48,000 nucleotides of DNA, from positions 1 to 48,000 of the IMG/VR virus record IMGVR_UViG_3300033182_000691; one strand, written 5' to 3'. This stretch comes from a virus. The notes under the pieces are model-generated. The model was not told where the DNA came from. It saw only the letters and a program-made list of their open reading frames with translations, and did not search any database. Made by a program: the position numbers and the translations under genes. Below, piece after piece: positions 11,361 to 25,887 of the stretch (the stretch's first letter is position 1; each line of letters begins with the position of its first letter).

Positions 11361-11557
11361 AAATCACCCCAAATCAGTAGTAAACCAGTTAAAGCCCCAA
11401 AAGCCGCCTCAATTACGATGCCCCAATGCCCCACCCCTATAGGGTGGTGGGGCATTTGGGGCATGAATCCGTAAAGTATTGCGCGTTTGCCCCAATGCCC
11501 CCTGGGGCATTTGTGGGGCATTTGGGGCATCAAACTTGTAAAATTTTGCACGTTCAT
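11357..11557 (-). CDS. Small ORF coupled to primase and terS, with MPQMPH repeats
   Basis: 66 residues. It starts in an ATGA overlap with the primase stop and ends in an ATGA overlap with the terS start, so it is placed like a coupled gene. The sequence has two copies of an MPQMPH...GHWG unit (about residues 10-23 and 32-46), encoded by the G/C-rich DNA repeats at 11419-11530, then a hydrophobic C-terminus (IVIEAAFGALTGLLLIWG) that could span a membrane. Because the DNA repeats may have a role of their own, the frame could be a by-product; I rate it as possible rather than proven. Function unknown. Confidence 0.45.
   Translation of the reverse strand: MNVQNFTSLMPQMPHKCPRGHWGKRAILYGFMPQMPHHPIGVGHWGIVIEAAFGALTGLLLIWGDL
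11419..11530. repeat. Duplicated C4/G4 repeat block
   Basis: TGCCCCAATGCCCC occurs at 11419-11432 and 11488-11501, and GGGGCATTTGGGGCAT at 11449-11464 and 11515-11530, so a block of about 66-69 bases is duplicated. Within it, ATGCCCCACC (11426-11435) and GGTGGGGCAT (11446-11455) form a 10-bp inverted repeat, and ATGCCCC/GGGGCAT around 11496-11510 another of 7 bp. Several G4 runs lie close together on the + strand, so a G-quadruplex is possible. It sits between the primase-helicase and terS genes. Confidence 0.8.
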
Positions 11558-13548
11558 CAGACGACCCTGGCCACCATGTCGTCACCATCTAAAAAGAAAA
11601 TATCGCCCTCTCCCTCTAATAAAGTGACCACTGCGCGACGCGCTCTTTCCTTTCGACGGTCGCGCCCGCTCTCTGGCTTTTTCATCTGCGAGGCCAATTC
11701 AGCCACCAAGTAATCTAAGGCCACGCCGGACCCATCAGCCGGCACTTCATTGCTCAATAGCTCAAAGGCCTGAAGTACCGCCCCCCGGTATTTGCTCTTC
11801 TCACCGCCGGCACGGGTAAGCTCAGCCTCAACCACCACGCACGAATCTATCGTATCGCCGTCTTCATCCATGCCGAGCGGCACCACTTCCAGGTCGAAGC
11901 CCCAAGCCCCTTGATCGTCACCGTCCTTTTGTTTCGATACTTTGGCAAACCGTGAGCCATTCACACGGCCGACTTCGATTTCACAATCGGCCGCCCCTTT
12001 CAGGCCAGACCAACCCCGTGCGCCCTTGCTTGAATCTTTGCCCACGTGATGCACGAGCATGACGAGTGCGCCGGTGGCCCTATGGATACCTTCACAATGC
12101 TTTAAGGCCTTGCCCATGTCCTCACCGCTGTTCTCATTTGAGCCTGGTGTCACCTGGGCGAAGGTATCGACAATGACCAAACGCGCCCCGCCGGTGGCGT
12201 GAATGGCTTTGGCCAGATCAAGCGCGTCGTCTTTATTTAAGAAATCCGGGGCCGCCGGGATTATGTCTACAGGTACGCCGGACAGGTCCAGGCCGTGATG
12301 CTGACCATAGGCTTGCACCCGTTTGCGCATACCGCCGACACCCTCAGCCGCGATAATGACCACCCGCCCCTGTTGCGTTTTGTGATCGCGCCAGGCGATC
12401 CCCTGGGCAATGGCAAAGGCCATATCTAAGGCGATAAACGATTTACCTGAACCCGGTGGGCCGATCAGTAGCGCGAGGGCCGCTTCCGGTAGCACGTGCT
12501 TAATTAACCAGGTAGGCGGCTTGCCCTGGCTGAAGGTGGCTGCAGGAACCGGGGCAAAGCGCATCGGCTTTGTGTCACTGGCCGAGGGTTGATCGTCGTC
12601 GGATGAACCCTCGGCCAGTTGATCAAACGCTTCTAAGTTATCGCGCACGATCAGCTTCGCGCCGTGATCATTGGCCATGCGTAGAAAGTACGCACCGGAA
12701 ATGACCTGTGAGCCAGGTTCGGCGTTGAAACTGAGCCATTTAGAGCGCAGCGCATTATGCCCTGGGTACTTGGTGCCTTTGGCCGACCATTGATCGAACA
12801 GTTTAAAACCGTCCGGACTGCCTTGCGTTTCAAAATGAATGGCCATGCCGAGCTTGAGCCAATGGTCATAAGATATATCAGGATCAATGAGCGATAAACC
12901 CTGCTTGAATTGATCAAGCGTAATACCTAACGGGGCTTTGGGTTGTTGCGCCCAATCGTCTTGCATCGCGCGCGAAAAGCGCGACTCGTAAAAACTGTAA
13001 ATATCATCAGAAGCCTCGGACAACGTGTTTTCTAGGCCTAAGATACTGGTTAACTCGGTCGCCTGGCCTGTAACCGTGACGTAGCCCTTTTTATTAAACG
13101 TTTCAAAACCGAATGACGCGGATGCCGTGTCTTTACGATCAGGCAATGAGCCTGTGACAAAGGCGCGGATGCCCTTCCCACTGGGTGAATATTCCGCATA
13201 GGTATTAGCGATGAGGGCTTGCACCTGAGGATCAATGCCCTGGGCCGTGATGCAGTTGTCGAAATCCAACGCCGTGATGTTGAAATCGGGCATCAGCGCA
13301 AAGCCAATACCGTCATAACCCTTTCGCGCGGCAAAGGCCTTTGCCGCTTCAAACGTGGCCAAGCGATTACGATCAGACTCGGCCCCCTGTTCACCGCGTC
13401 GTTTGGTGCCGTCTATGTAATACGGAATTTTCCTGGGCTTTTGCTCGCCGTGATCCTCATAACGCCACACAAGCCAGGCGTTGAGGCTTTTTAACTTTTC
13501 TGGTGCATCAATGTTTTTTACGTGCGCTTTTAATTCGGTAATGCTCAC
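11557..13548 (-). CDS. Primase-helicase (prim-pol-like, PriCT_2, RepA-type AAA)
   Basis: 663 residues in three parts. The N-terminal domain (about 1-180) has WLVWRYE, an ALDFDNC acidic motif and SPSGKGIRAFV, the pattern of phage primase N-terminal (prim-pol-like) domains. A PriCT_2-like segment follows (about 205-275; GLSLIDPDISYDHWLKLGMAI). The C-terminal half is a RecA-fold helicase of the RepA/AAA_25 type: Walker A GPPGSGKS (about 380), Walker B LVIVDTF (about 450), and VMLVHHVGKDSSKGARGWSGLKGA. It would prime and unwind at the phage origin. The start is a GTG with GGGGGGAG just before it. It lies directly downstream of the small regulator, unlike the other replication genes, which run rightward from 18.8 kb. 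Confidence 0.85.
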   Translation of the reverse strand: MSITELKAHVKNIDAPEKLKSLNAWLVWRYEDHGEQKPRKIPYYIDGTKRRGEQGAESDRNRLATFEAAKAFAARKGYDGIGFALMPDFNITALDFDNCITAQGIDPQVQALIANTYAEYSPSGKGIRAFVTGSLPDRKDTASASFGFETFNKKGYVTVTGQATELTSILGLENTLSEASDDIYSFYESRFSRAMQDDWAQQPKAPLGITLDQFKQGLSLIDPDISYDHWLKLGMAIHFETQGSPDGFKLFDQWSAKGTKYPGHNALRSKWLSFNAEPGSQVISGAYFLRMANDHGAKLIVRDNLEAFDQLAEGSSDDDQPSASDTKPMRFAPVPAATFSQGKPPTWLIKHVLPEAALALLIGPPGSGKSFIALDMAFAIAQGIAWRDHKTQQGRVVIIAAEGVGGMRKRVQAYGQHHGLDLSGVPVDIIPAAPDFLNKDDALDLAKAIHATGGARLVIVDTFAQVTPGSNENSGEDMGKALKHCEGIHRATGALVMLVHHVGKDSSKGARGWSGLKGAADCEIEVGRVNGSRFAKVSKQKDGDDQGAWGFDLEVVPLGMDEDGDTIDSCVVVEAELTRAGGEKSKYRGAVLQAFELLSNEVPADGSGVALDYLVAELASQMKKPESGRDRRKERARRAVVTLLEGEGDIFFLDGDDMVARVV

Positions 13549-13810: not shown

Positions 13811-13839
13811 AATATAAGCCGCACAAGTTTTTCTTACAA
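13811..13839 (-). promoter_or_regulatory. Promoter for the Cro/YdaS-like regulator
   Basis: Read leftward: TTGTAA (13839-13834), 17 bases, TATATT (13816-13811), close to the sigma-70 consensus. An ACTTGT half-site at 13828-13823 lies inside the spacer, which suggests autoregulation. Confidence 0.6.
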
Positions 13840-13844
13840 TAAAA

Positions 13845-13900
13845 ACTTGTAAATAAAACTTGTAATCTCTAAAAACTTGTATATATTTCGATGTACAAGT
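13845..13900. promoter_or_regulatory. Operator cluster of ACTTGTA heptamers
   Basis: Three direct copies of ACTTGTA at 13845-13851, 13858-13864 and 13875-13881, and one inverted TACAAGT at 13894-13900; the last two form a spaced dyad. They overlap both divergent promoters. The same arrangement recurs at 18742-18823. Probable binding sites of a phage repressor. Confidence 0.7.
13860..13887 (+). promoter_or_regulatory. Early rightward promoter at 13.9 kb
   Basis: TTGTAA (13860-13865), 16-base spacer, TATATT (13882-13887). The -35 box lies in the second heptamer and the -10 box abuts the third, so binding there would block RNA polymerase. It would drive the small-gene and antirestriction operon starting at 13957. 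Confidence 0.6.
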
Positions 13901-13936
13901 AAACCGATTTACACCGATTTACACCGATTTACACCG
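13901..13936 (+). repeat. 10-bp tandem repeat in the early leader
   Basis: Three full copies of a 10-bp unit (AMACCGATTT, in phase from 13901, 13911 and 13921) plus six bases of a fourth. The period is close to one helical turn. It begins right after the operator dyad and ends 20 bases before the first early gene, so it is in the untranslated leader. Role unknown: operator, iteron or mRNA element. Confidence 0.75.
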
Positions 13937-13956
13937 AAAACGGAGATGTAACGCCA

Positions 13957-14085
13957 ATGGCTATTGATCACCACATAACCCGCGCAACCTTCGGCAACCG
14001 CCGCGAGATTGCAGAGAAATTCGCCCAAGCCATGCGCGAGGGCCTCAAGCACTCCAAAGACAAGCAACAGAAGAAGGTGAAGTAA
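13957..14085 (+). CDS. Small basic protein, first early gene
   Basis: 42 residues (MAIDHHITRATFGNRREI... ending KDKQQKKVK), strongly basic at the C-terminus, with helical propensity in the middle. GGAG stands about 11 bases before the ATG. Its stop overlaps the next start by one base (TAATG). As the first gene after the operator-controlled promoter it is an immediate-early product. The family was not recognised; a nucleic-acid-binding or host-takeover peptide is possible. Confidence 0.6.
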   Translation: MAIDHHITRATFGNRREIAEKFAQAMREGLKHSKDKQQKKVK

Positions 14086-14483
14086 TGAGCATTACCAACC
14101 AAGACCAATTGCGCCAGGCAATCAGCGCAATTCTGAAAAAACACGGGGCTTTTTTTGCCTTCTCAAAAGCGCAATACAACCAGAACGCTAAGCCTGGCGT
14201 GATCTACGAACGCACTTCAAGCGGAATGATTGCCCCCAAAGGCGAAAGCGCAAAGGTCATGCGCCTAATCAGCGAGGCCGCCGACGCACTGCGCACCTAT
14301 GAGCTAAAGACCCAAGACGCGCAGACCATCATGCGCCGGGTATTCGCGATTTATGAGTGCCAAATAGACGGCAACCCAAACGACGCGCTGTATGACCTTC
14401 ACGCCTATGGCTTTAGCGACGAGCAAATCGCCGAGGGCTTTAAAAAGTATATGGCCTATTGCGTTGAGCACGATCTTTTCTAA
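14085..14483 (+). CDS. Hypothetical early protein (possibly DUF7659-like)
   Basis: 132 residues, starting MSITNQDQLRQAISAILKKHGAFFAFSKAQ. The N-terminal third and the phrase 'GVIYERTSSGMIAPKGES' resemble a family of small phage proteins of unknown function that I recall as DUF7659; I cannot confirm this. The rest is helical, with LHAYGFSDEQIAEGFKKYM near the end. No catalytic motif. Second gene of the early operon, overlapping the first by one base. Confidence 0.6.
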   Translation: MSITNQDQLRQAISAILKKHGAFFAFSKAQYNQNAKPGVIYERTSSGMIAPKGESAKVMRLISEAADALRTYELKTQDAQTIMRRVFAIYECQIDGNPNDALYDLHAYGFSDEQIAEGFKKYMAYCVEHDLF

Positions 14484-14498
14484 TTAGGAGCTAAGACC

Positions 14499-14726
14499 AT
14501 GAAATATTGTGAATTTGTACCCGCTACCGAGCCAGGCGAAGCGTTGACCTGGCAATACCGCAACCCCGACGTATTAGACGTTGCAGAACTTGAGGCCATG
14601 CGCCATGAGCTAAACAGCTTGCGCACCATGTTTGCAAAGCCGCCGCAAGGCAAATGGCTCTCCATCATCGACAACGCACTAGACCACGTAAACGGCAACC
14701 TGGCCGGACTGACTGAGGACTTTTAA
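14499..14726 (+). CDS. Hypothetical early protein
   Basis: 75 residues, helical, starting MKYCEFVPATEPGEALTW. TTAGGAGCTAAG gives a good ribosome-binding site before the ATG. It ends just before the ArdA gene. No motif recognised. Confidence 0.55.
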   Translation: MKYCEFVPATEPGEALTWQYRNPDVLDVAELEAMRHELNSLRTMFAKPPQGKWLSIIDNALDHVNGNLAGLTEDF

Positions 14727-14728
14727 CC

Positions 14729-15235
14729 ATGCCACAGATTTTAAAAGACACCCCCCGAATCTATGTCGGAACCTATAACGCTTACAACCGAGGCAGCTTA
14801 AAAGGGGCCTGGATTGATCTTGACGACTGCGCCGACGAAGACGCATTTTTTGAGGCCGCCGTAGAGTTACACCGTGACGAAGACGACCCGGAACTGATGT
14901 TTCAAGACTGGGAAAACATACCGGATCAATTTATCAGCGAGAGCAGCTTGCGCCCGGTTTTTTGGGATTACTTACGCGCTAAGCAAAACACCCACTTATC
15001 CGAAGAAGCGTTTGATGCCGGAGTTAATGCCGGACTGCCCTTCGATGAAGTTGAAGAACGCTATGTTGGTGAGTTTTCTAACAACGAAGAAATCGGAATA
15101 CACCTGGCTGAGAACGAATGCCTCTTTGATGGCTTACCAGACTTTGTTGAGCACTATTTTAATTTTGATGCGTATGGCCGGGATGCGGCTATGGGATGGA
15201 CGGAATCTGACGGCCATTATTTTGTGAATTATTGA
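14729..15235 (+). CDS. ardA: Antirestriction protein ArdA
   Basis: 168 residues. It opens with PRIYVGTYNAYNRGSLKGAWIDL, the hallmark ArdA start, followed by an acidic central part and C-terminal 'LPDFVEHYFNFDAYGRDAAMGW'. ArdA is an elongated acidic dimer that mimics B-form DNA and blocks type I restriction enzymes and their methylases. It is placed early, 3 bases after the previous gene, so it would be made as DNA enters. The length is normal for the family. Confidence 0.9.
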   Translation: MPQILKDTPRIYVGTYNAYNRGSLKGAWIDLDDCADEDAFFEAAVELHRDEDDPELMFQDWENIPDQFISESSLRPVFWDYLRAKQNTHLSEEAFDAGVNAGLPFDEVEERYVGEFSNNEEIGIHLAENECLFDGLPDFVEHYFNFDAYGRDAAMGWTESDGHYFVNY

Positions 15236-15246
15236 GAGGTTTAACC

Positions 15247-15459
15247 ATGATCACGTTCGATTTTATTTTGCAAGGCCACCAGGCCACCGAAAGCAACGCG
15301 CGCGACTGTATTAACGCCCTTGACTGGTCAGAGATACCCACCCGCGAGGCCCACCGCCCTACCCACTCCCGCTATATCGACTCAGCCCAGGGTATCGGCA
15401 TTTATTACGACTACGCCGCCGACTATTTCTTTTTTGCAGACGAGGAGCCAGAGCGATGA
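15247..15459 (+). CDS. Hypothetical early protein
   Basis: 70 residues from ATG 15247 (MITFDFILQGHQATESNAR). I chose this start because GAGAGG lies 7-12 bases before it; an upstream TTG at 15232 lacks such a site. Acidic, with an aromatic-rich end (YYDYAADYFFFADEE). Its stop overlaps the next start (ATGA). No family recognised; the acidity near two antirestriction genes might hint at DNA mimicry, but this is speculation. Confidence 0.55.
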   Translation: MITFDFILQGHQATESNARDCINALDWSEIPTREAHRPTHSRYIDSAQGIGIYYDYAADYFFFADEEPER

Positions 15460-15626
15460 AGTTTCAAGTGATTGGTACCACCTACAAGACCCTGCGCCAT
15501 GTGTCAAAAACGGTGGATAGCACTTTTAGCACCTATGACCAGGCAGCAGATTATTGGAAGGAACTGATGATTTTTAACGACGTTGTCCGGGTAGAAATGA
15601 AATTTTTAGAGGACTCAGACCAATGA
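15456..15626 (+). CDS. Small hypothetical early protein
   Basis: 56 residues (MKFQVIGTTYKTLRHVSKTV...), starting in a 4-base ATGA overlap with the previous gene and ending in the same type of overlap with the next, so it is translationally coupled on both sides. GAGGAGCCAGAGCG supplies the ribosome-binding site. A mixed alpha/beta composition with 'YDQAADYWKELM'. No function recognised. Confidence 0.6.
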   Translation: MKFQVIGTTYKTLRHVSKTVDSTFSTYDQAADYWKELMIFNDVVRVEMKFLEDSDQ

Positions 15627-15841
15627 GCATTGAAACCGCTTTAGTCAAACTCAACTGCATTAGCAACGCGATTAGCCAGGTAAAAGAGTTAGACCGATCT
15701 TTCTGCGTGTTTACCGTGAACGGCCATGCCCAGGTTAGCCAATGGGAAAACTGTAAACAGATTAAAGACGCAGAAATATACGCAGTTATTGACCCCGACC
15801 ACACGCACCCCGAAGGCGTGAAAATTACTTACTGGAGCTAG
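15623..15841 (+). CDS. Hypothetical early protein
   Basis: 72 residues starting MSIETALVKLNCISNAISQVKEL; helical N-terminus then beta-rich middle (FCVFTVNGHAQVSQW). Overlaps the previous gene by 4 bases. Conserved domain not recognised. Part of the short-ORF string between the two antirestriction genes. Confidence 0.55.
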   Translation: MSIETALVKLNCISNAISQVKELDRSFCVFTVNGHAQVSQWENCKQIKDAEIYAVIDPDHTHPEGVKITYWS

Positions 15842-15845
15842 AGCC

Positions 15846-15998
15846 ATGAACTACAGCGTTTGCAGATACCCCCGCGAAGATGACCCCCGGGCAGAATGGG
15901 CTGTTTTTTGTGCGGCCAGTTGTACCTATTTATTTGGCTACAAAAATAAAGGGGCAGCGAAAAATCACGCCGATGAACTCAATGCCATGAGGGACTAA
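15846..15998 (+). CDS. Small hypothetical early protein
   Basis: 50 residues (MNYSVCRYPREDDPRAEW...). Has three or four cysteines and 'YLFGYKNKGAAKNHADELNAM'. Starts 4 bases after the preceding stop, with a GAGCC before the ATG. Reads like one of the small coupled genes of the leading region; no domain recognised. Confidence 0.5.
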   Translation: MNYSVCRYPREDDPRAEWAVFCAASCTYLFGYKNKGAAKNHADELNAMRD

Positions 15999-16001
15999 GT
16001 G

Positions 16002-16109
16002 ATGGTCGATTTACTCACAACCCTGGCCCTGGTCTTAGGGCCGTTCACGATCCTAATCACCCTATCCTGGTTTATTGGCAGCCGCATTGCCCAATGGTTT
16101 GAACATTAA
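16002..16109 (+). CDS. Small single-span membrane protein
   Basis: 35 residues, most of them one hydrophobic helix (LLTTLALVLGPFTILITLSW), ending in a charged tail RIAQWFEH. It would sit in the inner membrane. It begins 3 bases after the previous stop and is followed by the ArdB/KlcA-like gene. Function unknown; possibly a superinfection or membrane-stress peptide, with no direct evidence. Confidence 0.5.
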   Translation: MVDLLTTLALVLGPFTILITLSWFIGSRIAQWFEH

Positions 16110-16119
16110 AGGAACAACA

Positions 16120-16545
16120 ATGGAAAATTTACACATCATTCCCGAAGACCAAGCCGTTAACTGGACCGCTAAATATTTTGGCAAGTATTTCAACGCCGCC
16201 CTGGGCCTATGTGATGACTTAGTAGACAGCGATATTGAAGGGTCTATTGGTGACTTTTTTGACTTTGCTGAAACGGATACCGGCCTACCCGTCTTTTTAA
16301 TACGCAGCGACAAAGACCAGTTACACGTGAGCAATGCAGACAATTATTACCAGGGAACTATGTCACCTGTGGCCGCGTCCCTGGGCATTAATATCATCAT
16401 GGTCAACCGTTTATGTTGGGGCCTGTTTGAAAAGGACCAACAAGCGGCTAGGCAATACTGCGACTTTTATCACCAGTTAAAAGCCTGGGCCGCGCAAAAC
16501 CTCGACGACGCTGATACCTCGGCCGTGATCGCTTACGTTGACTAG
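16120..16545 (+). CDS. ArdB/KlcA-like antirestriction protein (probable)
   Basis: 141 residues from ATG 16120, preceded by AAAGGAACAACA; earlier in-frame codons belong to the overlapping membrane gene. The C-terminal half (NADNYYQGTMSPVAASLGINIIMVNRLCW ... QYCDFYHQLKAWAAQNLDDADTSAVIAYVD) follows the ArdB/KlcA plan: a 'LSADAAGIVA..'-like helix, a helix with CW, then 'Y..LR.FA..HPEA..I..AID'. ArdB/KlcA proteins counter type I restriction by a mechanism distinct from DNA mimicry. Position 1 kb after ardA supports this. The N-terminal half is diverged, so I call it probable only. Confidence 0.55.
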   Translation: MENLHIIPEDQAVNWTAKYFGKYFNAALGLCDDLVDSDIEGSIGDFFDFAETDTGLPVFLIRSDKDQLHVSNADNYYQGTMSPVAASLGINIIMVNRLCWGLFEKDQQAARQYCDFYHQLKAWAAQNLDDADTSAVIAYVD

Positions 16546-16572
16546 ACTAATTTATATAATCGGACTATAAAA

Positions 16573-16725
16573 ATGGACAAAGAATTGTTAATTGACCGGG
16601 TAATTAGCCAGATTGAAAAGGATATTGCGGCACAAGATACTGCCGCATTGTTTGAACTTTTAGGTAGAATATCCGTAGATAACCTTACAAGTTATTTACC
16701 AGAAGGGATTGAACCTTTCCCTTAA
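16573..16725 (+). CDS. Small acidic helical protein
   Basis: 50 residues (MDKELLIDRVISQIEKDIAAQ...), acidic, almost all helix, ending 'LTSYLPEGIEPFP'. An ACTTGTA-type heptamer (TACAAGT at 16686) lies within it, probably by chance. Two small hairpins follow (GGGC/GCCC and CCCG/CGGG, 16728-16766) before the next gene; they lack T tracts. No function recognised. Confidence 0.5.
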   Translation: MDKELLIDRVISQIEKDIAAQDTAALFELLGRISVDNLTSYLPEGIEPFP

Positions 16726-16782
16726 AAATAAGGGCTTATGCCCAATTAAACCCGAAAATACGGGTATTACTAGGAAAACAAA

Positions 16783-17826
16783 ATGATCGCAGACAGTAGC
16801 GCGATGCCCTTCTTTGGGGACTTGCTTGATCGCACGTGCGCCGCTTTAAACTTGTATCAAGACGACCTGGCGAGAGAGCTAGGCGTGACGCAGCAAGCCG
16901 TGAGTCTGTGGAAAAAGCAAGGTTATATCCCTCGTAAACGCATTGAGCCGTTGCGCCTGGTGTTAAAAGAACACCTGGCCAAAGAAGAACACGCCGACGG
17001 TCTAGTTGAGGCCATGCCCACCAAAGAACAGAAAGCCGCTCGCGCCGCCCTGGTTGCTGAGCTTGATGAAGTGCTTGAAGAAATGGGTATTAAACTCGCC
17101 GGTCGATTGAAGGAAGGCATTGCCAGTATAAAAGCGATCACCGACATGAAGGCCCAGGCCGAAGTGATCAAAGCCCGTATTGACGCGCAGACCGCCCCGA
17201 TTAATGAGGTAATGCGCAAACTCGACCAGGCAAGCGAGCCTGTGCGCAAAGTGATGGCCCAACATAAGGAAGCCCAGGAAACACTCAGGCAGTTTGAGGA
17301 CAGTTATAAAGGGGCAGCGAATTTTTTACAGGAACCGGTTGCGCGACGGTCGCGTGACCTGGCTATCCATGAGGCCGGGCAACGGTTGGATAACCGCCGC
17401 TTAAAGCAAGAGCTAGTCCAGTTATTGCGCTATCTGCCAGGCGAGCAAGAGGTGACAGAACACGTTAATGGCCGTGATCGCCAGGTCGATGCCATTATGA
17501 ACGGGGCAGCGATTGAGATTGCCTACGCGCAAATAGGCCGCAACACAATTGATTGGCGGCCAGTAATGAACCGCGTATTTGAATGCGCCATATTGCTACG
17601 CAATCGCAGCGTGGATCGCGCCTTTGTCTTTATGCCAGTGTTTGAGAGTGAGATTGAAAGCAATCCTGAGTTATTGGATCGCGTTGACTTCCTGGTGAAA
17701 GATGCCGAAATGTTAGGCGTTGGATTTGTACCGGTTATTGGTGAGCCGAGAGATATATTTGCGCAGATTGTTGAGCGTGTGACCGGTAAAGAGTTTGACC
17801 CGGGTTTATACGACCTACCTTTTTGA
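16783..17826 (+). CDS. XRE-type HTH protein with coiled coil and possible endonuclease-like C-terminus
   Basis: 347 residues. Residues about 8-55 are an XRE helix-turn-helix (LYQDDLARELGVTQQAVSLWKKQGYIP). Residues about 85-190 are charged helix, a likely coiled coil (LVAELDEVLEEMGIKLAG; VMAQHKEAQETLRQFEDSY). The C-terminal part (about 195-347) has RQVDAIMNGAAIEIAY and later VDRAFVFMPVFESEIE, a pattern that recalls BglII/BamHI-type restriction-endonuclease folds, but the second catalytic position (E-x-Q/K) reads E-I-A, so it may be inactive. It is a candidate transcription regulator or DNA-end binding protein. AGGA precedes the ATG. It converges with the leftward 126-residue gene, overlapping by 12 bases. 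Confidence 0.6.
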   Translation: MIADSSAMPFFGDLLDRTCAALNLYQDDLARELGVTQQAVSLWKKQGYIPRKRIEPLRLVLKEHLAKEEHADGLVEAMPTKEQKAARAALVAELDEVLEEMGIKLAGRLKEGIASIKAITDMKAQAEVIKARIDAQTAPINEVMRKLDQASEPVRKVMAQHKEAQETLRQFEDSYKGAANFLQEPVARRSRDLAIHEAGQRLDNRRLKQELVQLLRYLPGEQEVTEHVNGRDRQVDAIMNGAAIEIAYAQIGRNTIDWRPVMNRVFECAILLRNRSVDRAFVFMPVFESEIESNPELLDRVDFLVKDAEMLGVGFVPVIGEPRDIFAQIVERVTGKEFDPGLYDLPF

Positions 17827-18195
17827 TGGCTTAATATTCAATCGGTCAAAGGTCCATTCAGGCTTACACAATTCATCATCCAGTATTTGTTGAATGACCC
17901 AAATGGGAAAGCCGTGCTTGCGATAGTAATCACCGGCAGTACGGTTCTTATTAAAGCGTTCACCAAAACCGCGTGACTTACCGTAATGGTCAATGACTTC
18001 ATCAACGATGGATTCGGTGGCTTGTTCAAAGCGTTTCGCCAGTGACATTAATGTATCTAAAACTTCTTGCTCTTCGGTTCCTATGACCTTTTTACTCATT
18101 CTATAAACCCTCTTAGGATCAATTAATTTACGAGTGAAAAGCCAATCCGCACTGACAAATGACATATCAACATTCGGAGTTTCAACCAAACTCAT
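17815..18195 (-). CDS. Lone leftward gene in the early region, unknown (possible regulator)
   Basis: 126 residues from ATG 18195 (MSLVETPNVDMSF). I chose this start because GAGG lies about 7 bases before it; a longer frame to 18237 would run through the operator heptamers. The C-terminal half is helical and basic (SRGFGERFNKNRTAGDYYRKHGFPIWVIQQIL). Two CATACAAGT copies (18205-18213, 18231-18239) lie just upstream. It is the only leftward gene between 13.9 and 26.6 kb, as a lysogeny regulator often is, but no DNA-binding domain is obvious. Confidence 0.55.
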   Translation of the reverse strand: MSLVETPNVDMSFVSADWLFTRKLIDPKRVYRMSKKVIGTEEQEVLDTLMSLAKRFEQATESIVDEVIDHYGKSRGFGERFNKNRTAGDYYRKHGFPIWVIQQILDDELCKPEWTFDRLNIKPSKR

Positions 18196-18204
18196 ATACA
18201 ACCT

Positions 18205-18239
18205 CATACAAGTAATTAGTTGTAGGGTAACATACAAGT
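18205..18239. promoter_or_regulatory. Heptamer pair upstream of the lone leftward gene
   Basis: CATACAAGT occurs at 18205-18213 and 18231-18239, 26 bases apart, in the same orientation (ACTTGTATG on the coding strand). Same heptamer as at 13.8 and 18.75 kb. No good -10/-35 pair could be assigned here. Confidence 0.6.
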
Positions 18240-18248
18240 TCTTTTAAA

Positions 18249-18305
18249 CTATACGGGTATTTACGTATAGAAAATGGCTGTAACTTTCCATCAAATTTCC
18301 ATCAA
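18249..18305. promoter_or_regulatory. Second operator-like cluster (dyad plus direct repeats)
   Basis: CTATACG (18249-18255) and CGTATAG (18264-18270) form a 7-bp dyad, and TTTCCATCAA occurs twice in direct repeat (18285-18294 and 18296-18305, period 11). They lie in the 163-base gap between the lone leftward gene and the rightward gene at 18359. They differ from the ACTTGTA family, so a second regulator is possible. Confidence 0.5.
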
Positions 18306-18358
18306 TTCGGATTTTTTGCTTTGTTACATTACCTCGTGTTTTCTAAGAGGTATCGAAA

Positions 18359-18733
18359 ATGAAAAAGAAAAACATCAAGCAAATCGTTGAACAATTGCAT
18401 CAGCAACAAACCAATCTCGATAAGATAATCAACGAAATAAGACTCTTAGAAAACGAAATCATTGCCTGTTTAAACACCGAAGATTGTAAGAACTGCCAGG
18501 CCTTTTGCCATTGTACTGAGGTCGCTGACACCCTCACCCCACAAGTAATTGATAAGCAAGCCCTGGATACCTTACACGCGATCTATGCCGATATTCCCGG
18601 CGGTAATGCACTTCTCAACACCTGTTTCCGCACCAAATACGAAATTGACCCTACCCTTTTGCGTCATATCCAACATACCGACAAAAAACTTTTTCAAGAT
18701 ATTCAATCGGTTATCGTCAACAAGGCCAATTAA
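18359..18733 (+). CDS. Cysteine-containing hypothetical protein
   Basis: 124 residues. N-terminal helix (QIVEQLHQQQTNLDKIINEIRLLENEI) likely coiled coil, then a cysteine cluster CLNTEDCKNCQAFCHC that could bind a metal, then a helical C-terminus. AGAGG lies before the ATG. It sits alone between two operator regions (18205-18305 and 18742-18823), so it has its own promoter region. Function unknown. Confidence 0.6.
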   Translation: MKKKNIKQIVEQLHQQQTNLDKIINEIRLLENEIIACLNTEDCKNCQAFCHCTEVADTLTPQVIDKQALDTLHAIYADIPGGNALLNTCFRTKYEIDPTLLRHIQHTDKKLFQDIQSVIVNKAN

Positions 18734-18741
18734 GGTTAAAA

Positions 18742-18823
18742 ACTTGTAAAATTTTACTTGTATTGCATATTTTTACTTGTATAGTAGCTTCATACCGTGT
18801 CGATGTACGGCACAAGTTACAAG
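18742..18823. promoter_or_regulatory. Operator cluster at the replication promoter
   Basis: ACTTGTA at 18742-18748, 18756-18762 and 18775-18781 (spacings 14 and 19), with inverted ACAAGT at 18812-18817 and TTACAAG following. Order, spacing and the adjacent TCGATGTAC closely copy the 13.8 kb cluster, so both were probably made by duplication or shaped for one repressor. Confidence 0.7.
18758..18785 (+). promoter_or_regulatory. Replication-module promoter
   Basis: TTGTAT (18758-18763), 16-base spacer, TATAGT (18780-18785), with the -35 box in heptamer 2 and the -10 box against heptamer 3, as at 13.86 kb. Likely start of the operon beginning at 18847. Confidence 0.6.
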
Positions 18824-18846
18824 CAACGAACACAGGGGAAGAGAGT

Positions 18847-19212
18847 ATGCTTGAGAGTACCATTCAGTCGTTAGAGTCTAAGATTGACGTTTTAATTCAA
18901 ACACTTGACCAAGTTAATGAGCGTTTGGCCATTAACAACCAATCGGACAAGTACCGCCAGGTAAAGGCGATTTCTGACGAGCCATTGAATGAATTGCCTG
19001 AACAGGCAGCCACCCAGGATGACGTACAAAAAAACGAGCAAAGCTACGATCTTGAAACGTGCAAAACCCTGGCAATCAAACTGGCCAAGAACACACCCGA
19101 CGCACTGGTAAACGTGTTGGAGAAGTTCAAGGCCGCACGTGTCACAGAATTAAAAACCGATCAGCTCAATGCGTTCGGTGCGGAGATTGAAGCGTTACTT
19201 GGTGCTAACTGA
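18847..19212 (+). CDS. Coiled-coil replication-module protein, unknown
   Basis: 121 residues from ATG 18847, which follows GGGGAAGAG; the longer frame to 18763 runs through the promoter. The first half is a coiled coil (LESTIQSLESKIDVLIQTLDQVNERL), the second half a compact helical region (CKTLAIKLAKNTPDALVNVLEKFKAARVTELKTDQL) resembling small proteins that precede DUF2800 genes in other phages. Its stop overlaps the DUF2800 start by one base. It may help load the nuclease or the ssDNA-binding protein; not proven. Confidence 0.6.
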   Translation: MLESTIQSLESKIDVLIQTLDQVNERLAINNQSDKYRQVKAISDEPLNELPEQAATQDDVQKNEQSYDLETCKTLAIKLAKNTPDALVNVLEKFKAARVTELKTDQLNAFGAEIEALLGAN

Positions 19213-20366
19213 TGGCACACGCAAAAATCTTTGGAGCCTCTAAAGCGTATGAATGGGGCAATTGCCCTGGCAGCGTCGCCCTCAGCAAAGACATTCCAGA
19301 TCAATCCAGTAGCTTTGCTCGCGAAGGAACCGCCGCCCATACCCTAGCCGAATTAGTCTTAACCGACAAAATCGCTAAGCCTGAAAAAGCACTGGGTAAA
19401 ACCATCACCGTCGAGGGCCAGGCCATAACCGTCGATGATGAAATGGTTGCCGCCATTACCACCTACGTTAATGACGTTATCGATGCCACCCCAGTAAATG
19501 CCATTCGCTTGATTGAGGAACGGGTCGATTACTCACACCCTATCGCACAGACCGACGCATTCGGAACCGCTGACGTTATCGTTATCAGTGGTGATGAAAT
19601 CCAGGTACACGATCTGAAATACGGCAAAGGCGTACAGGTCGATGCGAAAGAAAACTGGCAGCTAATGTTATATGCCCTGGGCGCATACGAGCTATACGGC
19701 ATTGCCGGTGACTTTAAATCCATTCGACTATTCATCCATCAACCCCGCTTAAATCATTTATCCGAATGGTTATTAAGCGTTGAGGATTTACTGGCCTTTG
19801 GTCAAGACATGAAAGTGCGAGCCGCACGTGTCTTTAGCTCACCGGATGAAATGAATCCAGGTGAAAAGCAATGTCGATGGTGTAAAGCGAAAGCAACCTG
19901 CCCCGCGCTGCAAAAGCAAGTGATGGACGAGTTCGACAAACTCACCAAGCCAGAAGATAGCAACGTTGAAAACGAAGTCTTGGGCCGTGCCATGAGTCAC
20001 GTGGACATGATCGAATCCTGGTGCAAAGCCGTTCGCGCTGAAACTGAACGCCGCTTACTCACCGGCCATGAGATACCTGGCTTTAAGTTAGTGGAAGGCC
20101 GACGCGGTGCGCGTAAGTGGACAGATGCCACACGGGTTGAAAACGCACTAAAAGCCATGCGCCTGAAAGCCTCAGATATGTACGAGCAAAAACTCATCAC
20201 ACCAACCAAAGCTGAAAAGCTAATGAAGTCCGGTGTGATTGGTAAGCGACAGTGGGACAAGTTGATCCCGCAAATGGTCCAGGCCGAAGGCAAACCCTCA
20301 GTGGCTAAAAGTTCTGATGCACGTCCGGCCAAGCAATACGGCCTGGAATTTCAAAACGTCAGTTGA
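19212..20366 (+). CDS. DUF2800 family PD-(D/E)XK nuclease
   Basis: 384 residues. N-terminal 'AYEWGNCPGSVALSKDIPDQSS.FAREGTAAHTLAE' is the start of this RecB/Cas4-like family. The active site reads TDAFGTADVIV (about 117-127) and VHDLKYGKGV (about 137-146), with the D and D-x-K of a PD-(D/E)XK enzyme, then QLMLYALGAY. A cysteine set CRWCKAKATC (about 220-229) may contribute to a metal or Fe-S site as in Cas4-like exonucleases. Probably a recombination or end-resection exonuclease in phage replication. It precedes the DUF2815 gene, the standard pairing. Confidence 0.8.
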   Translation: MAHAKIFGASKAYEWGNCPGSVALSKDIPDQSSSFAREGTAAHTLAELVLTDKIAKPEKALGKTITVEGQAITVDDEMVAAITTYVNDVIDATPVNAIRLIEERVDYSHPIAQTDAFGTADVIVISGDEIQVHDLKYGKGVQVDAKENWQLMLYALGAYELYGIAGDFKSIRLFIHQPRLNHLSEWLLSVEDLLAFGQDMKVRAARVFSSPDEMNPGEKQCRWCKAKATCPALQKQVMDEFDKLTKPEDSNVENEVLGRAMSHVDMIESWCKAVRAETERRLLTGHEIPGFKLVEGRRGARKWTDATRVENALKAMRLKASDMYEQKLITPTKAEKLMKSGVIGKRQWDKLIPQMVQAEGKPSVAKSSDARPAKQYGLEFQNVS

Positions 20367-20440
20367 ACACAGTAACGAGCGCAATCACCCCGCTTTTGCG
20401 CTTAGTCAATTTTAAATAGCGGGACATAGGTATTAAGAGT

Positions 20441-20983
20441 ATGAAAGTAATGTTGAACGATGTACGCCTTAGCTTCCCTAGCTTATTTGAAGCGTCGGCG
20501 TTTAATTCAAGCGATAAACCTAGCTTCTCAGCGTCGTTTATTTTTCCGAAAGACCACCCTGGCGTGAAAGAAATAAAAGAGGCTATCGAGGCTACAGGCA
20601 AAGAGAAGTGGAATGACAAATGGGAAACCATCAAAAAGTCATTAGGCACTGACAAGATTCCGCTTAAAGACGGTGATACCAAAGACTATGACGGTTATGC
20701 CGGTAACTTGTTTATCAGCGCACGTAACTACAACCGCCCGGTCGTCGTTGACCAGGACCGTACACCGCTCACTGAGGCTGATGGTAAGCCGTATGCCGGT
20801 TGTTATGTGAATGCGGCCCTAGAGTTTTGGGCGCAAGACAATAACTACGGTAAGCGTATTAACTGCAAAGTGCGCGGCGTTCAATTCTATAAGGATGGTG
20901 ACTCGTTTGGCGCAGGTGGCGGTATGCAAACCGACGAGTTCGATACCTTTGAATCGAACAATGATGTAGCAGCGTTTATCTAA
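20441..20983 (+). CDS. DUF2815 family, ssDNA-binding-like protein
   Basis: 180 residues starting MKVMLNDVRLSFPSLFEAS. The strings SASFIFPKDHPG, 'YDGYAGNLFISARNYNRPVVVD' and 'YAGCYVNAALEFWAQDNNYGKRINCKVRGVQFYKDGD' match DUF2815, an OB-fold family thought to bind single-stranded DNA during phage replication. The acidic C-terminus (DEFDTFESNND) is usual for SSB-like proteins. It sits between DUF2800 and the DNA polymerase and its last base overlaps the polymerase start. Confidence 0.8.
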   Translation: MKVMLNDVRLSFPSLFEASAFNSSDKPSFSASFIFPKDHPGVKEIKEAIEATGKEKWNDKWETIKKSLGTDKIPLKDGDTKDYDGYAGNLFISARNYNRPVVVDQDRTPLTEADGKPYAGCYVNAALEFWAQDNNYGKRINCKVRGVQFYKDGDSFGAGGGMQTDEFDTFESNNDVAAFI

Positions 20984-22761
20984 TGTTACCTGTTGTGGTC
21001 TATGACCTAGAGTGTTACCAAAATTATTTCTCAGCGGCGTTTCTCACCGTTGAGAGTGGTCGGGTACAGCATTTTGAAATAATGAATGATCAGAAATTCG
21101 GACCTGATCAAATCAAAATTATCAAAATGATTATGGCTAACACCCAGGTCGTAGGCTTCAACAGCACGTCTTATGACCTTCCCATGCTAAGCCTGGCAGT
21201 TAAAGGTGCGAGTACCAAGCAGCTTAAAAAGCTAAGTGACGACATTATTGTTAATGGCGTTAAGCACTGGGAACACCAACACAAAATGCTTAATGCCCCT
21301 AACCACATTGATCTAATCGAAGTGGCCCCAGGGCAAGCCAGTTTAAAAATCTACGGCGGCCGTATGAATGCAGAGAAGATGCAAGACTTACCCCTGGCCC
21401 CCGATAGCATCATTGATGAATCCGATGTGGTACTGATGCGTAAGTATTGTGAAAACGATCTGCATACCACCGCCCTACTTTATAAAACGCTTGAGCCGCA
21501 GATTAAATTGCGTGAATCGCTCGGCGCACAATACGGCCTTGAGTTGCGATCCAAGTCTGATGCGCAAATCGCTGAGGCCATCATCCGCAGTGAAGTGGAA
21601 GCAATCACTAAAGAGAAAGTTAAAAAGCCAGGTGAATGCCCAGGCCACAGCTTCCAATACACAGCCCCCGACTTTATTAAATATAACTCTGAGCAATTGC
21701 AGAAGGCATTGCAGGTCGTTACCTCTGCCTTATTCGTAGTCAGTGAATCCGGCAGTGTCACACTACCTAACCCAATCGCTGATTTAAAAATCAGCATAGG
21801 ACAATCAAATTACCGCATGGGTATCGGCGGCTTGCATAGTACGGAGAAGCAAACAGCCCATTACACCGATGACGATTACGTTCTGGTTGACCGTGACGTG
21901 GCCAGTTACTACCCGAGCATTATTTTAAATGGTGGTTATGCGCCGACGCACTTAGGTAAGGCATTCACAAAGGTATATCGAACCTTAGTTGAACGTCGCC
22001 TAGAGGCTAAGCGCACTGGCGATAGCGTTACGGCCAACAGTTTGAAAATCACCATTAACGGTAGCTTCGGGAAGTTTGGCAGTAAGTATTCGATCCTTTA
22101 TTCACCTGAGCTATTGATCCAGACAACCATCACCGGCCAGTTAAGCCTGTTGCTCTTGATTGAAATGCTTGAGGACAAAGGCATAAGCGTTGTTAGCGCA
22201 AATACGGATGGCGTAGTGATCAAATGCCCACGCAAACAGATTGCGATTATGGACACGATCATTTGGGAATGGGAAGCCAGGACAAACTTTGTCACCGAAG
22301 AAACCAATTACCGCGCCCTATTCTCACGTGATGTAAATAATTACATCGCACTGAAAGACAAGGGTTTTAAGGTTAAAGGTATCTACTCACCGCCCAATCT
22401 GATGAAAAACCCTGCGACCCCAGTCGTCGCTAAGGCGGTTATTAAATACCTCAGCGACGAAACACCAATCAGCAAAACGATAAGCGAGTGTAAGGACATA
22501 CGGGAGTTCCTTTCAATTCGCACGGTTAAAGGTGGTGCCGTTGATCAAGAGGGTCAACGCCTCGGCAAAGCGATTCGTTGGTACTACAGCAACAGCGTCA
22601 CCGAGCCTATTCGTTATGAGAAGAACGGCAACAAAGTCCCAAGATCAGAAGGTGCAAGGGCCTTGATGAATCTTGATGGTGAGTTTCCAAGCGATGTTGA
22701 TTACACCTGGTACATGAACGAGGGAAGAAAGGTGCTGCACGAAATTGGTATCGAAGGTTAG
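20983..22761 (+). CDS. Family B DNA polymerase with 3'-5' exonuclease
   Basis: 592 residues, short for the family. Exonuclease motifs: YDLEC (Exo I, about residue 6), FNSTSYDLP (Exo II, about 61-69) and YCEND (Exo III, about 153-157). Polymerase motifs: VDRDVASYYPSIIL (motif A, about 302-315), KITINGSFGKFGS (motif B, about 352-364) and SANTDGVVI (motif C, about 405-413). In motif C the usual D-T-D reads N-T-D; the second aspartate, which binds the catalytic metals, is kept. It should replicate the phage genome. Neighbouring DUF2800, DUF2815, VRR-NUC and SNF2 genes form a cassette better known from Firmicutes phages with a family A polymerase. Confidence 0.85.
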   Translation: MLPVVVYDLECYQNYFSAAFLTVESGRVQHFEIMNDQKFGPDQIKIIKMIMANTQVVGFNSTSYDLPMLSLAVKGASTKQLKKLSDDIIVNGVKHWEHQHKMLNAPNHIDLIEVAPGQASLKIYGGRMNAEKMQDLPLAPDSIIDESDVVLMRKYCENDLHTTALLYKTLEPQIKLRESLGAQYGLELRSKSDAQIAEAIIRSEVEAITKEKVKKPGECPGHSFQYTAPDFIKYNSEQLQKALQVVTSALFVVSESGSVTLPNPIADLKISIGQSNYRMGIGGLHSTEKQTAHYTDDDYVLVDRDVASYYPSIILNGGYAPTHLGKAFTKVYRTLVERRLEAKRTGDSVTANSLKITINGSFGKFGSKYSILYSPELLIQTTITGQLSLLLLIEMLEDKGISVVSANTDGVVIKCPRKQIAIMDTIIWEWEARTNFVTEETNYRALFSRDVNNYIALKDKGFKVKGIYSPPNLMKNPATPVVAKAVIKYLSDETPISKTISECKDIREFLSIRTVKGGAVDQEGQRLGKAIRWYYSNSVTEPIRYEKNGNKVPRSEGARALMNLDGEFPSDVDYTWYMNEGRKVLHEIGIEG

Positions 22762-23035
22762 GGAGAGTCAGGTTGAAAAATATCTTGTTAAGAAAACAAA
22801 AGAACATGGGGGAGAAATCCGCAAGGTGCAATGGGTCGGTAGACGCGGCGCACCAGACCGCTTAGTGATGTTACCTGGCCACACTGTTTGGGTTGAGCTT
22901 AAAGCCCCAGGCAAAAAGGCACAGCCTCACCAAGAGCGTGAACACAAACGACTACGAGCAATGGGTCAGAGAGTTGAAGTAATTGATTCGACAGACGGCA
23001 TTGATCAGTTATTTGCCGAGTGCGGAAAAACGTAA
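22745..23035 (+). CDS. VRR-NUC domain nuclease
   Basis: 96 residues from a TTG start at 22745 that lies inside the end of the polymerase gene (17-base overlap). I keep this start because the family needs the glutamate in RESQVEKYL at the N-terminus. The active-site pattern is E (about 8), GRRGAPDRLVML with D (about 38) and VWVELKAPG with E-x-K (about 50-52), a PD-(D/E)XK core. VRR-NUC proteins act on branched DNA; in phages they occur beside SNF2 helicases as here. The family's stand-alone length is about 90-100 residues. Confidence 0.8.
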   Translation: MVSKVRESQVEKYLVKKTKEHGGEIRKVQWVGRRGAPDRLVMLPGHTVWVELKAPGKKAQPHQEREHKRLRAMGQRVEVIDSTDGIDQLFAECGKT

Positions 23036-23039
23036 AACG

Positions 23040-23351
23040 ATGGACAAATTAAAGTTGTGGGCATTGGCAAAAATGCTTGATGAAAAAACACCAAGCCAGG
23101 CGGCTAAAGAGAGTATCGATACCTCAGCACTAGAGAACCTTGTACTCGACACTATCTTTCACTTCGGCCCTGGGGGTTGTATCTCAGACCAGGTACGTGA
23201 CCGCCTTCCCGACTTAGCCTATAGCTCAGTAACCGCACGATTCAGTGCGTTAAAAAAGAAAAACCTTATCCGTGATACCGGACAACGCCGCAAAGGTTAC
23301 TCAGGCCGCATGCAGACGGTGTTACGTGCAACCGCCTGGGACTTAATCTAA
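23040..23351 (+). CDS. Winged-helix protein in replication module
   Basis: 103 residues from ATG 23040. Middle and end form a winged helix (GGCISDQVRDRLPDLAYSSVTARFSALKKKNLIRDTGQRRKG), with a short beta-hairpin wing and AWDLI end. Similar small wHTH proteins occur between VRR-NUC and SNF2 genes in phage cassettes. Its stop overlaps the helicase start by one base (TAATG). Probably DNA-binding, role in replication or regulation uncertain. Confidence 0.65.
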   Translation: MDKLKLWALAKMLDEKTPSQAAKESIDTSALENLVLDTIFHFGPGGCISDQVRDRLPDLAYSSVTARFSALKKKNLIRDTGQRRKGYSGRMQTVLRATAWDLI

Positions 23352-24727
23352 TGCTGTTCACGCCCTACGCTTATCAGCAGCAGATCATTGAGCATATCTT
23401 GGAGAACCCACGTGCTGCGGCTTGGGCCGGTATGGGCATGGGTAAAACTAGCTCAACGCTCTATGCCATGAAAGCGTTATCACTGATTGAGCAAGGTAAA
23501 GTCTTAGTCGTCGCCCCGCTTCGTGTGGCGCAATCTACCTGGCCAGATGAAGTGAAGAAATGGGACGACTTCAACAGCATTACTATCTCGCCTATTGTCG
23601 GCAATCCAAAGCAGCGTAAAGCGGCGTTAAACAAAGACGCTGATATTTACACCATCAATTATGAAAACCTACCCTGGCTTGTTGAAACGCTCGGCGTTAA
23701 ATGGCCATTCAACATTGTCATTGCCGATGAATCCACCAAGCTAAAAGGATTCCGCACACGCCAGGGAAGCAAACGCGCCGGGGCATTAGGTAAGGTTGCC
23801 CATAAGCACATTGACCGCTTTATCCAGTTAACCGGTACACCCTCGCCCAATGGCTTAATTGACCTTTGGGGCCAGGCTTGGTTTTTGGATCAAGGCTCAC
23901 GCTTAGGTCGCTCGTTTAAAGGCTTTACTGATCGGTGGTTTATCGGTGAACAGGTGGCTGCAGACGCTCATGCGCTGCGCTACCGCCCACGTGCCAATGC
24001 TCGTGTTGAAATCGAGCAACGGCTACGTGACTTATGCCTAACGCTAGATGCGAAAGATTGGTTTGATCTTGATGATCCGATTGTTCGCAATATCTACGTT
24101 GACCTTCCCATGAAAGCGCGTGATTTATACGACGACATGGAAAAGGAAATGTACCTAACGCTAGGTGCAGATGAAGTTGAGGCTGTTAACGCTGCGGCAA
24201 AAACCGTTAAGTGTTTGCAGTTGGCCAATGGTGCTATTTACACCGACGATGAAGGGGCCTGGAAAGACGTTCACGATCAGAAGCTACAAGCCCTAGAAGA
24301 AATCATTGAAGAGTCTGGTGGTATGCCAGTGCTTGTGGCTTATCACTTCAAGACTGACTTGGTGCGTATGCAAAAGGCCTTTAAGCAAGGTCGCGTTCTG
24401 GATCAAGACCCTCAGACATTGCGCGATTGGAATGCCGGCAAAATCCCGTTGCTATTCGCGCACCCTGCCAGTGCCGGACACGGCCTTAACTTACAAGACG
24501 GCGGCAATATCCTGGTGTTCTTTGGTCACTGGTGGAACCTGGAAGAGTACCAACAAATCATTGAACGAATCGGTCCCACTCGTCAGAAGCAAGCCGGTTA
24601 TGACCGCCCAGTATTTATCTATCACATTCTTGCGCGTGACACCGTTGACGATCTTGTGATGGAGCGACGTAACAGTAAGCGTGAGGTCCAAGACCTTTTG
24701 CTAGAAGCTATGAAGAGAAAAAAGTAA
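23351..24727 (+). CDS. SNF2-family DNA helicase
   Basis: 458 residues. Motif I GMGMGKTSST (about residues 27-36), motif Ia LVVAPLRVAQSTW, motif II as ADESTKLKG (DEAD-like DEST), motif III LTGTPSPNG, and C-terminal motifs GHGLNLQDG and QIIERIGPTRQKQAG. It matches phage-type SNF2 helicases, which travel on double-stranded DNA and are thought to remodel forks or strip proteins during replication. It follows a winged-helix gene and VRR-NUC, its usual partner. The gene overlaps its neighbours by one base at each end. Confidence 0.85.
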   Translation: MLFTPYAYQQQIIEHILENPRAAAWAGMGMGKTSSTLYAMKALSLIEQGKVLVVAPLRVAQSTWPDEVKKWDDFNSITISPIVGNPKQRKAALNKDADIYTINYENLPWLVETLGVKWPFNIVIADESTKLKGFRTRQGSKRAGALGKVAHKHIDRFIQLTGTPSPNGLIDLWGQAWFLDQGSRLGRSFKGFTDRWFIGEQVAADAHALRYRPRANARVEIEQRLRDLCLTLDAKDWFDLDDPIVRNIYVDLPMKARDLYDDMEKEMYLTLGADEVEAVNAAAKTVKCLQLANGAIYTDDEGAWKDVHDQKLQALEEIIEESGGMPVLVAYHFKTDLVRMQKAFKQGRVLDQDPQTLRDWNAGKIPLLFAHPASAGHGLNLQDGGNILVFFGHWWNLEEYQQIIERIGPTRQKQAGYDRPVFIYHILARDTVDDLVMERRNSKREVQDLLLEAMKRKK

Positions 24728-24987
24728 TGAATGATTTGACGACTAAAATGATTGCTAAGTCCCTGGCTGATTTAAGCCGAGCTAATTCTGCATTGCCGGC
24801 AGATGGGCCTTGTAGCATGACGCAGGTATGTAATTTTTTCGGTATCTCTAAGAAGACTTTATATATATGGCAAGAGAAGCTAGACGGCTTTCCTAAGTCG
24901 GTAAAAATCGGCAACCGCTTACGTTGGGATGCAAACGACATCCGAGCGTTTTGGCTAAAGCAAAAAGAGTTAAACCATGACGGCTAA
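24727..24987 (+). CDS. AlpA/MerR-type HTH protein
   Basis: 86 residues: MTQVCNFFGISKKTLYIWQEKLDGFPKSVKIGNRLRWDANDIRAFWLK is a MerR/AlpA-type helix-turn-helix plus wing, the fold of excisionases and small phage activators. Residues before it form a helix (KMIAKSLADLSRANS). It resembles the 63-residue protein at 26413-26604. Function: DNA binding; either a directionality factor or a regulator. Confidence 0.65.
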   Translation: MNDLTTKMIAKSLADLSRANSALPADGPCSMTQVCNFFGISKKTLYIWQEKLDGFPKSVKIGNRLRWDANDIRAFWLKQKELNHDG

Positions 24988-25557: not shown

Positions 25558-25887
25558 GTGCTTAACAAGTGTTATCACAATAAGAACATTGATCTATTGC
25601 TTGAGAAGATTGCTAAGTGGCATTACGACAGAAACTTAATCGATGGATCAACTGACCAGGCTCAATTTGTGAAGCTAATAGAAGAAGCCGGTGAGTTAGC
25701 CGGAAACATTGCCAGGGGGCGACCTGCCCGTATCGCTGATGACATTGGCGACATGATGGTGGTGTTAATCAACATTGCTGAACGCAATGCTTTATCGATC
25801 AAGTCTTGTTTAGATCAGGCTTGGAATGACATTAAAGATCGCAAAGGCCGCATGGTCGATGGCGTATTTGTAAAGGAAGAGGACTAA
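25558..25887 (+). CDS. MazG-like nucleotide pyrophosphohydrolase
   Basis: 109 residues with a GTG start behind AAGGGGGAAAC. The motif FVKLIEEAGELAGNIARGR (EExxE-type) followed by IADDIGDMMVVLINIAERN, with acidic ligands for Mg2+, is the MazG core, an all-alpha NTP pyrophosphatase fold. Phage MazG proteins hydrolyse non-canonical or excess nucleotides or (p)ppGpp-related signals to favour replication. It lies between HTH genes in the early operon. The length matches small phage MazG forms. Confidence 0.7.
   Translation: MLNKCYHNKNIDLLLEKIAKWHYDRNLIDGSTDQAQFVKLIEEAGELAGNIARGRPARIADDIGDMMVVLINIAERNALSIKSCLDQAWNDIKDRKGRMVDGVFVKEED

Follow-up and report, generated by a model that had tools for sequence, protein, structure and literature searches.

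Recurrent ACTTGTA half-sites at three gene starts of a probably temperate phage are candidate operators for its own YdaS/434-type regulators

In the 48,000-nucleotide stretch of viral DNA analysed here (the window; positions 1 to 48,000 of IMG/VR record IMGVR_UViG_3300033182_000691), a first-pass annotation had pointed to a recurrent heptamer, ACTTGTA (complement TACAAGT), in three intergenic regions. The leftmost region separates divergent genes. On its left side, P0001 (13574–13777, minus strand) encodes a 67-aa YdaS/Cro-like helix-turn-helix (HTH) protein (Pfam YdaS_toxin, E 1.8e-10; PHROG transcriptional repressor), and downstream of P0001 is a primase/helicase gene (PriCT_2 and AAA_25; 11557–13548, minus). 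On its right side begins a rightward operon (13957–17826, plus) that encodes a DUF7659 protein, ArdA (14729–15235), an ArdB/KlcA-like protein (16120–16545), small proteins and, as the last gene, P0002 (16783–17826, plus), a 347-aa protein in which a YdaS/CI-type HTH is joined to a predicted long helix and, at the C terminus, to an alpha/beta region. The second region adjoins a lone leftward gene (17815–18195, minus), for whose 126-aa product family-library searches found no family. The third precedes a replication operon (18847–24727, plus) for a 121-aa protein, a DUF2800/PD-(D/E)XK exonuclease, a single-stranded DNA-binding protein, a DNA polymerase and an SNF2-type helicase. The earlier assignment of an antirestriction operon and a replication operon was sound, with the antirestriction genes right of 13.9 kb and the exonuclease, single-stranded DNA-binding protein, polymerase and helicase genes right of 18.8 kb.

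All heptamers listed by the first-pass annotation were found, and they fall into three putative operator clusters. Cluster 1 (13822–13900), which adjoins P0001 where this gene diverges from the antirestriction operon, holds ACTTGTA at 13845, 13858 and 13875 (plus) and at 13894 (minus, TACAAGT), together with ACTTGTG at 13822 (minus) and TACAA at 13835; its TTGTA/TACAA pentamer positions are 13822, 13835, 13847, 13860, 13877 and 13894. The 200 bp upstream of P0001 contain five TTGTA and four ACTTGTA. Cluster 2 (18197–18239) consists of TACAA at 18197, TACAAGT at 18207, AGTTGTA at 18218 and TACAAGT at 18233, with pentamers at 18197, 18207, 18220 and 18233 (steps of 10, 13 and 13 bp). Both of its ACTTGTA copies (18207 and 18233, minus) lie within CATACAAGT, as had been noted, and the quasi-palindrome TACAAGTAATTAGTTGTA spans 18207–18224. 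In cluster 3 (18742–18824), three ACTTGTA copies at 18742, 18756 and 18775 (plus) are accompanied by the near-matches CACAAGT at 18811 and TACAAGC at 18818 (minus), previously described as inverted parts; pentamers stand at 18744, 18758, 18777, 18811 and 18818. New with respect to the earlier list are the half-sites ACTTGTG at 13822 (minus), TACAA at 13835 and AGTTGTA at 18218. An A/T-tract usually precedes the TTGTA core, and the functional unit is probably the TTGTA/TACAA half-site.

The heptamer is strongly over-represented at these positions. The window contains 14 ACTTGTA where 5.2 are expected, and no other 7-mer forms two separate clusters with three or more copies per 100 bp. In line with the first-pass expectation of an excess at promoters, the three stretches hold four, two and three copies compared with ∼0.05–0.07 expected in each (P < 0.0002, 0.0014 and < 0.0002), and in 200 block-local dinucleotide shuffles no 7-mer formed two clusters when these were limited to 60 bp. 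A scan of the window with a weight matrix from ten sites, as had been suggested, returned eleven matches of at least 14.6 bits, ten of them in the three intergenic gene-start regions; as the matrix was trained on the same sites, only the gap to the next matches is informative. Single strong sites elsewhere were at 16686, 11534, 16850, 9086 and 25139. Chance alone might repeat a -35-like word in intergenic DNA rich in A and T. In favour of this are the resemblance of TTGTAW to TTGACA, the AT content of the regions (68–74%) and sigma-70 consensus matches that are not enriched (6 in 13.4–19.2 kb versus 8.1 in shuffles); given the empty shuffles and the excess over local expectation in each stretch, this origin is extremely unlikely. 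For the promoter-like matches, it is their position that counts and not their number.

Two divergent promoter-like sites overlap cluster 1, and both pass the promoter scan. The rightward promoter of the antirestriction operon (13860–13887, plus) combines TTGTAA (13860–13865), a 16-nt spacer and TATATT (13882–13887), matches 9/12 consensus positions and has as its -35 the TTGTA of heptamer 2 (13858). The leftward promoter of the YdaS-like gene and the primase gene (13839–13811, minus; TTGTAA-17-TATATT), which was absent from the first-pass list, uses the TACAA half-site at 13835 as its -35 and holds another half-site in its spacer. A putative promoter of the replication operon (18758–18785, plus) has TTGTAT (18758–18763), 16 nt and TATAGT (18780–18785); its -35 again coincides with the TTGTA of heptamer 2 and matches the consensus at 3/6 positions only, below the scan threshold. 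The -35 hexamer (TTGTAW) is therefore a half-site at each definable promoter. The proposal that the modules at 13.86 and 18.76 kb follow the same plan held for the layout, the -35 within heptamer 2 and the 16-nt spacer. It did not extend to the heptamer spacings (13/17 versus 14/19), and alignment of the two modules found no homology beyond the heptamers. Similarly, TCGATGTAC does follow each promoter and occurs exactly twice in the window (13888 and 18800), but at unequal distances from the -10. The two modules share layout, not homology.

Nine of the ten heptamers (the exception is 13894) are oriented toward the adjoining promoter or gene, as is usual for activator or promoter elements, and the -35 hexamers are weak (3–4/6). 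Both features would suit sites for a phage or host activator, or a modified polymerase, switching on early or middle promoters. However, sites that overlap the -35 and touch or overlap the -10 are better suited to a repressor than to an activator, and none of several other HTH proteins in the window (an AlpA-like protein, 24727–24987, and a winged HTH protein, 25887–26198) shows a connection with ACTTGTA; activation is thus unlikely. Downstream of the rightward promoter, the presumed antirestriction leader (13900–13937) contains CGATTTACAC three times in direct orientation, in steps of exactly 10 bp at 13905–13934. These units are found nowhere else in the window and may be bound by another protein or have arisen by simple tandem expansion. 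These units, the direct repeats and the AT-rich stretch beside the primase gene recall replication-origin iterons bound by the primase/helicase or another initiator. Yet the cluster 1 spacings are irregular (12, 13, 17 and 17), two further gene starts at a distance of 4–5 kb carry the same word, and -35 hexamers fall on the half-sites, making an origin very unlikely.

The first-pass annotation had named the 67-aa protein as the regulator. P0001 is indeed a candidate by position, but it is not the only one, as P0002 fits the heptamer better by its recognition helix. The operators of the phage 434 repressor and Cro are 14-bp ACAA-N6-TTGT dyads, and two glutamines of the 434 proteins read the ACAA end. 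Alignment of the recognition helices (P0001, VTPQYISL; P0002, VTQQAVSL; 434 CI, TTQQSIEQ; 434 Cro, VKQQSIQL) placed Gln-Gln at positions 28–29 of P0002 and Pro-Gln in P0001, and the heptamer contains ACAA in its complement, TACAAGT. The Gln-Gln pair of P0002 was recorded before any YdaS loci were compared.

Phage YdaS/Cro loci often carry a word of their own repeated three to four times beside the gene, such as ATAAAC in D14S, GTATTA in AsXd-1 and GTTGTA in Tr60_Ab31 and PS-1, and in YdaS/Cro switches the repeated word often lies between the cro- and cI-like genes. Within a first set of loci, those with GTTGTA or CTTGTA arrays (Tr60_Ab31, PS-1, L104 and L120) carried Gln at the position of 434 Gln29; L120, an inovirus-like element, encodes a KQQ regulator and carries seven TTGTA, of which four read CTTGTA. 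This set suggested the Gln29 rule, partly post hoc; for this reason the test was fixed before a second set of loci, fetched for the purpose, was inspected. Among its 82 distinct proteins, at least three TTGTA in the 200 bp upstream were found for 6 of 14 with Gln29 and for 4 of 68 without (p = 0.0012). Once near-duplicates were removed (72 loci), the same was true of 4/4 Gln-Gln proteins versus 3/60 without Gln (p = 5.5e-5, or ∼0.03 when corrected for 512 words). At the Gln-Gln loci, TTGTA ranked first of 512 pentamers and ACTTG second, and these two words overlap to give ACTTGTA. Loci that link a Gln-Gln (434-like) helix with upstream TTGTA arrays are L094, L104, L107, L120, L138, L177, L181 and L211, and ACAA-N6-TTGT dyads were seen in the new loci L177, L211 and L193. 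It is possible, judging from these sequences, that the link is a general specificity rule in the YdaS family. Binding of the sites by a host regulator, with the phage tapping a host regulon, would accord with the result that no close phage relative with arrays was found. Against this, the regulatory region itself holds genes for two phage regulators of a suitable type, and the recognition-helix statistics of the family match the heptamer word, which makes a host regulator quite unlikely.

We consider it probable (roughly 0.62) that the phage's own YdaS/434-type HTH regulators use the ACTTGTA copies as operator half-sites, with P0001 and P0002 cross-regulating in a Cro/CI-like manner. P0002 is favoured by its helix and P0001 by its position, because TTGTA arrays go with the Gln-Gln helix, Pro-Gln proteins are mixed and P0001 adjoins cluster 1. 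On this basis P0002 is most likely the main binder of the half-sites, and P0001 probably binds the same or overlapping ones. With a regulator on the half-site that forms the -35, RNA polymerase would be kept out, which would shut the rightward promoter of the antirestriction operon and P0002, the leftward promoter of P0001 and the primase gene, and the replication promoter at 18.76 kb. Since the leftward P0001 promoter lies within the same operator cluster, autoregulation belongs in the model, and both proteins would regulate themselves and each other in the fashion of a Cro/CI pair. We infer repression as the sign of regulation, and likewise the division of labour between P0001 and P0002. Antirestriction, replication and regulator genes would likely belong to one common regulon. 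Thus, of the earlier proposal that one regulator controls all three units, a common phage regulator is the best reading, and the weakest link is control of the lone leftward gene, because the promoter scan found no recognisable sigma-70 promoter at the 18.2-kb array.

Besides this missing promoter, several results weigh against two phage regulators acting on these sites. The half-sites are mostly direct repeats 13–19 bp apart, unlike the dyads of 434; only two pairs are dyad-like (TACAA-N7-TTGTA at 13835–13851 and TACAA-N8-TTGTA at 18207–18224), and none of the half-sites forms an ACAA-N6-TTGT dyad of the 434 type. No CI-type repressor with an oligomerisation or S24-type domain is divergent from the cro-like gene. 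The only CI candidate, P0002, is encoded in the distal part of the opposite operon, at a distance of 3 kb from cluster 1, and lacks an S24-type or other known C-terminal family, the C-terminal region having matched no family in Pfam, PHROGs or NCBIfam. When all Gln29 proteins were pooled and near-duplicates removed, TTGTA came only second (p = 0.012). Gln29 proteins of the Pro-Gln type, as in P0001, were mixed (L121, L202 and L206 had no TTGTA array), and some non-Gln proteins did have one (L179, L187, L193 and L216). Finally, no close relative of the phage was found in the collections searched, leaving none to footprint.

Comparison with known systems placed the locus nearest to lambdoid Cro/CI-type switches of the YdaS branch: a small YdaS/Cro HTH gene lies beside divergent promoter-like sites, the intergenic region has at least three copies of a phage-specific word, and the same word recurs at distant gene starts in an OL/OR-like manner (18742–18824 and 18197–18239). 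The likeness to phage 434 lies in the P0002 helix, which begins with Gln-Gln, and in the half-site core ACAA/TTGT; it ends at the spacing of the two dyad-like pairs (N7 and N8) and at the membership of P0001 and P0002 in the YdaS branch. In the Escherichia coli O157:H7 prophage CP-933P, the repeats bound by PaaR2 (CI) and YdaS (Cro) overlap at PRM/PR, and both proteins repress the distant PL; the operators are four 18-bp palindromes with half-site GTTTAGTAA, CI is divergent from cro and YdaT corresponds to CII (PMC8630535). Like CP-933P, the window has a YdaS-type Cro beside divergent promoters with several repeats and a distant promoter where these repeats recur. A proposed further likeness is that the operators of the two regulators overlap, as experiment showed for CP-933P and as the sequence suggests for the window. 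In contrast, the window sites are mostly direct-repeat ACTTGTA, the opposite antirestriction operon ends with the gene for the second HTH protein, and no counterpart of CII was identified in the window.

The Pseudomonas phages Tr60_Ab31 and PS-1 (L094 and L138) resemble the window in having a Gln29-type YdaS/Cro protein and three to four TTGTA between divergent regulator genes, but their word is GTTGTA, a classical CI is divergent from Cro and replication genes lie downstream of cro. L120 shares an array of (A/T)n-CTTGTA half-sites, several of them direct and with irregular spacing, but it is another kind of element (replication gene Phage_CRI) with a single array seen. The asymmetric repeated sites aligned with transcription loosely recall the stoperators of mycobacteriophages L5 and TipsytheTRex, where more than 20 copies of a 13-bp asymmetric site are bound by a monomeric repressor with a second DNA-binding domain (PMC9283540). 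However, the sites of the window number ten and are confined to three promoter regions; almost every strong site stands at one of the three gene starts and not, as with stoperators, between genes within operons.

Searches for related modules gave little beyond these cases. Viral contigs contained 85 stretches with three spaced heptamers, nearly all tandem or coding repeats and none matching this module. Neither regulatory region (13.8 kb and 18.7 kb) had DNA similarity to phages. Protein searches with P0001 and P0002 covered viral contigs, phages, plasmids and genomes without revealing a close relative, P0002 had no relative beyond its HTH, and its predicted fold (uncertain, with a predicted local distance difference test score, pLDDT, of 53) had no significant PDB match. 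Relatives of the primase and polymerase (L088–L090, L095 and L100–L103) have no heptamer array, and conservation of the replication genes thus does not extend to the word. A YdaS-like gene stands directly before a primase/helicase gene in this phage (11557–13777), in Caulobacter phage GB2A (L095, 3989–6330) and, with a TOPRIM-type enzyme, in Alteromonas phage XX1924 (L146, 1453–3171).

The wider record contains a leftward terminase/portal/capsid block, and the phage is probably temperate, because it has an integrase gene (26611–27837; PHROG integrase, E 1.2e-15). Its terminase is 43–49% identical to those of phages from a spring metagenome and ∼40% identical to those of a Pseudomonas phage group that includes LKA5 and D14S. 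Scans for tRNAs and Rfam families were empty. Near cluster 2, an inverted repeat CTATACG-N8-CGTATAG (18249–18270) lies between the divergent genes at 18195 (minus) and 18359 (plus) and is a possible operator for another regulator, and a tandem 11-bp repeat, AACTTTCCATC/AAATTTCCATC (18282–18303), is directly upstream of the gene at 18359. Just to the left of the primase gene, a region of small open reading frames (ORFs) has dense ATGCCCC/GGGGCAT repeats (11394–11530; at least seven copies in ∼100 bp). A single leftward 3712-aa ORF (28338–39476) encodes a giant polyvalent-type phage protein, which has a SAP domain and, below the threshold, a match to ART-PolyVal.

In conclusion, the parts of this system are of a known kind, namely lambdoid Cro/CI-type operators, and what is unusual is the arrangement of the sites and the placement of the genes. 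More tentatively, and with considerable doubt, the locus may be an unusual switch in which P0002, with its HTH, long helical linker and C-terminal alpha/beta domain, is encoded in the antirestriction operon and acts with a Cro-like partner on direct-repeat half-sites at -35 elements, joining the antirestriction, primase and replication operons in one lysogeny/early switch. If the assignment of the half-sites is true, it would provide a regulator–operator pairing for an uncultured temperate phage without close relatives in the collections searched, and antirestriction genes would be wired to the same switch as replication. As a Gln-Gln helix predicts TTGTA (and ACTTG) arrays in the YdaS family, the operators of unstudied prophages may then be forecast from sequence.

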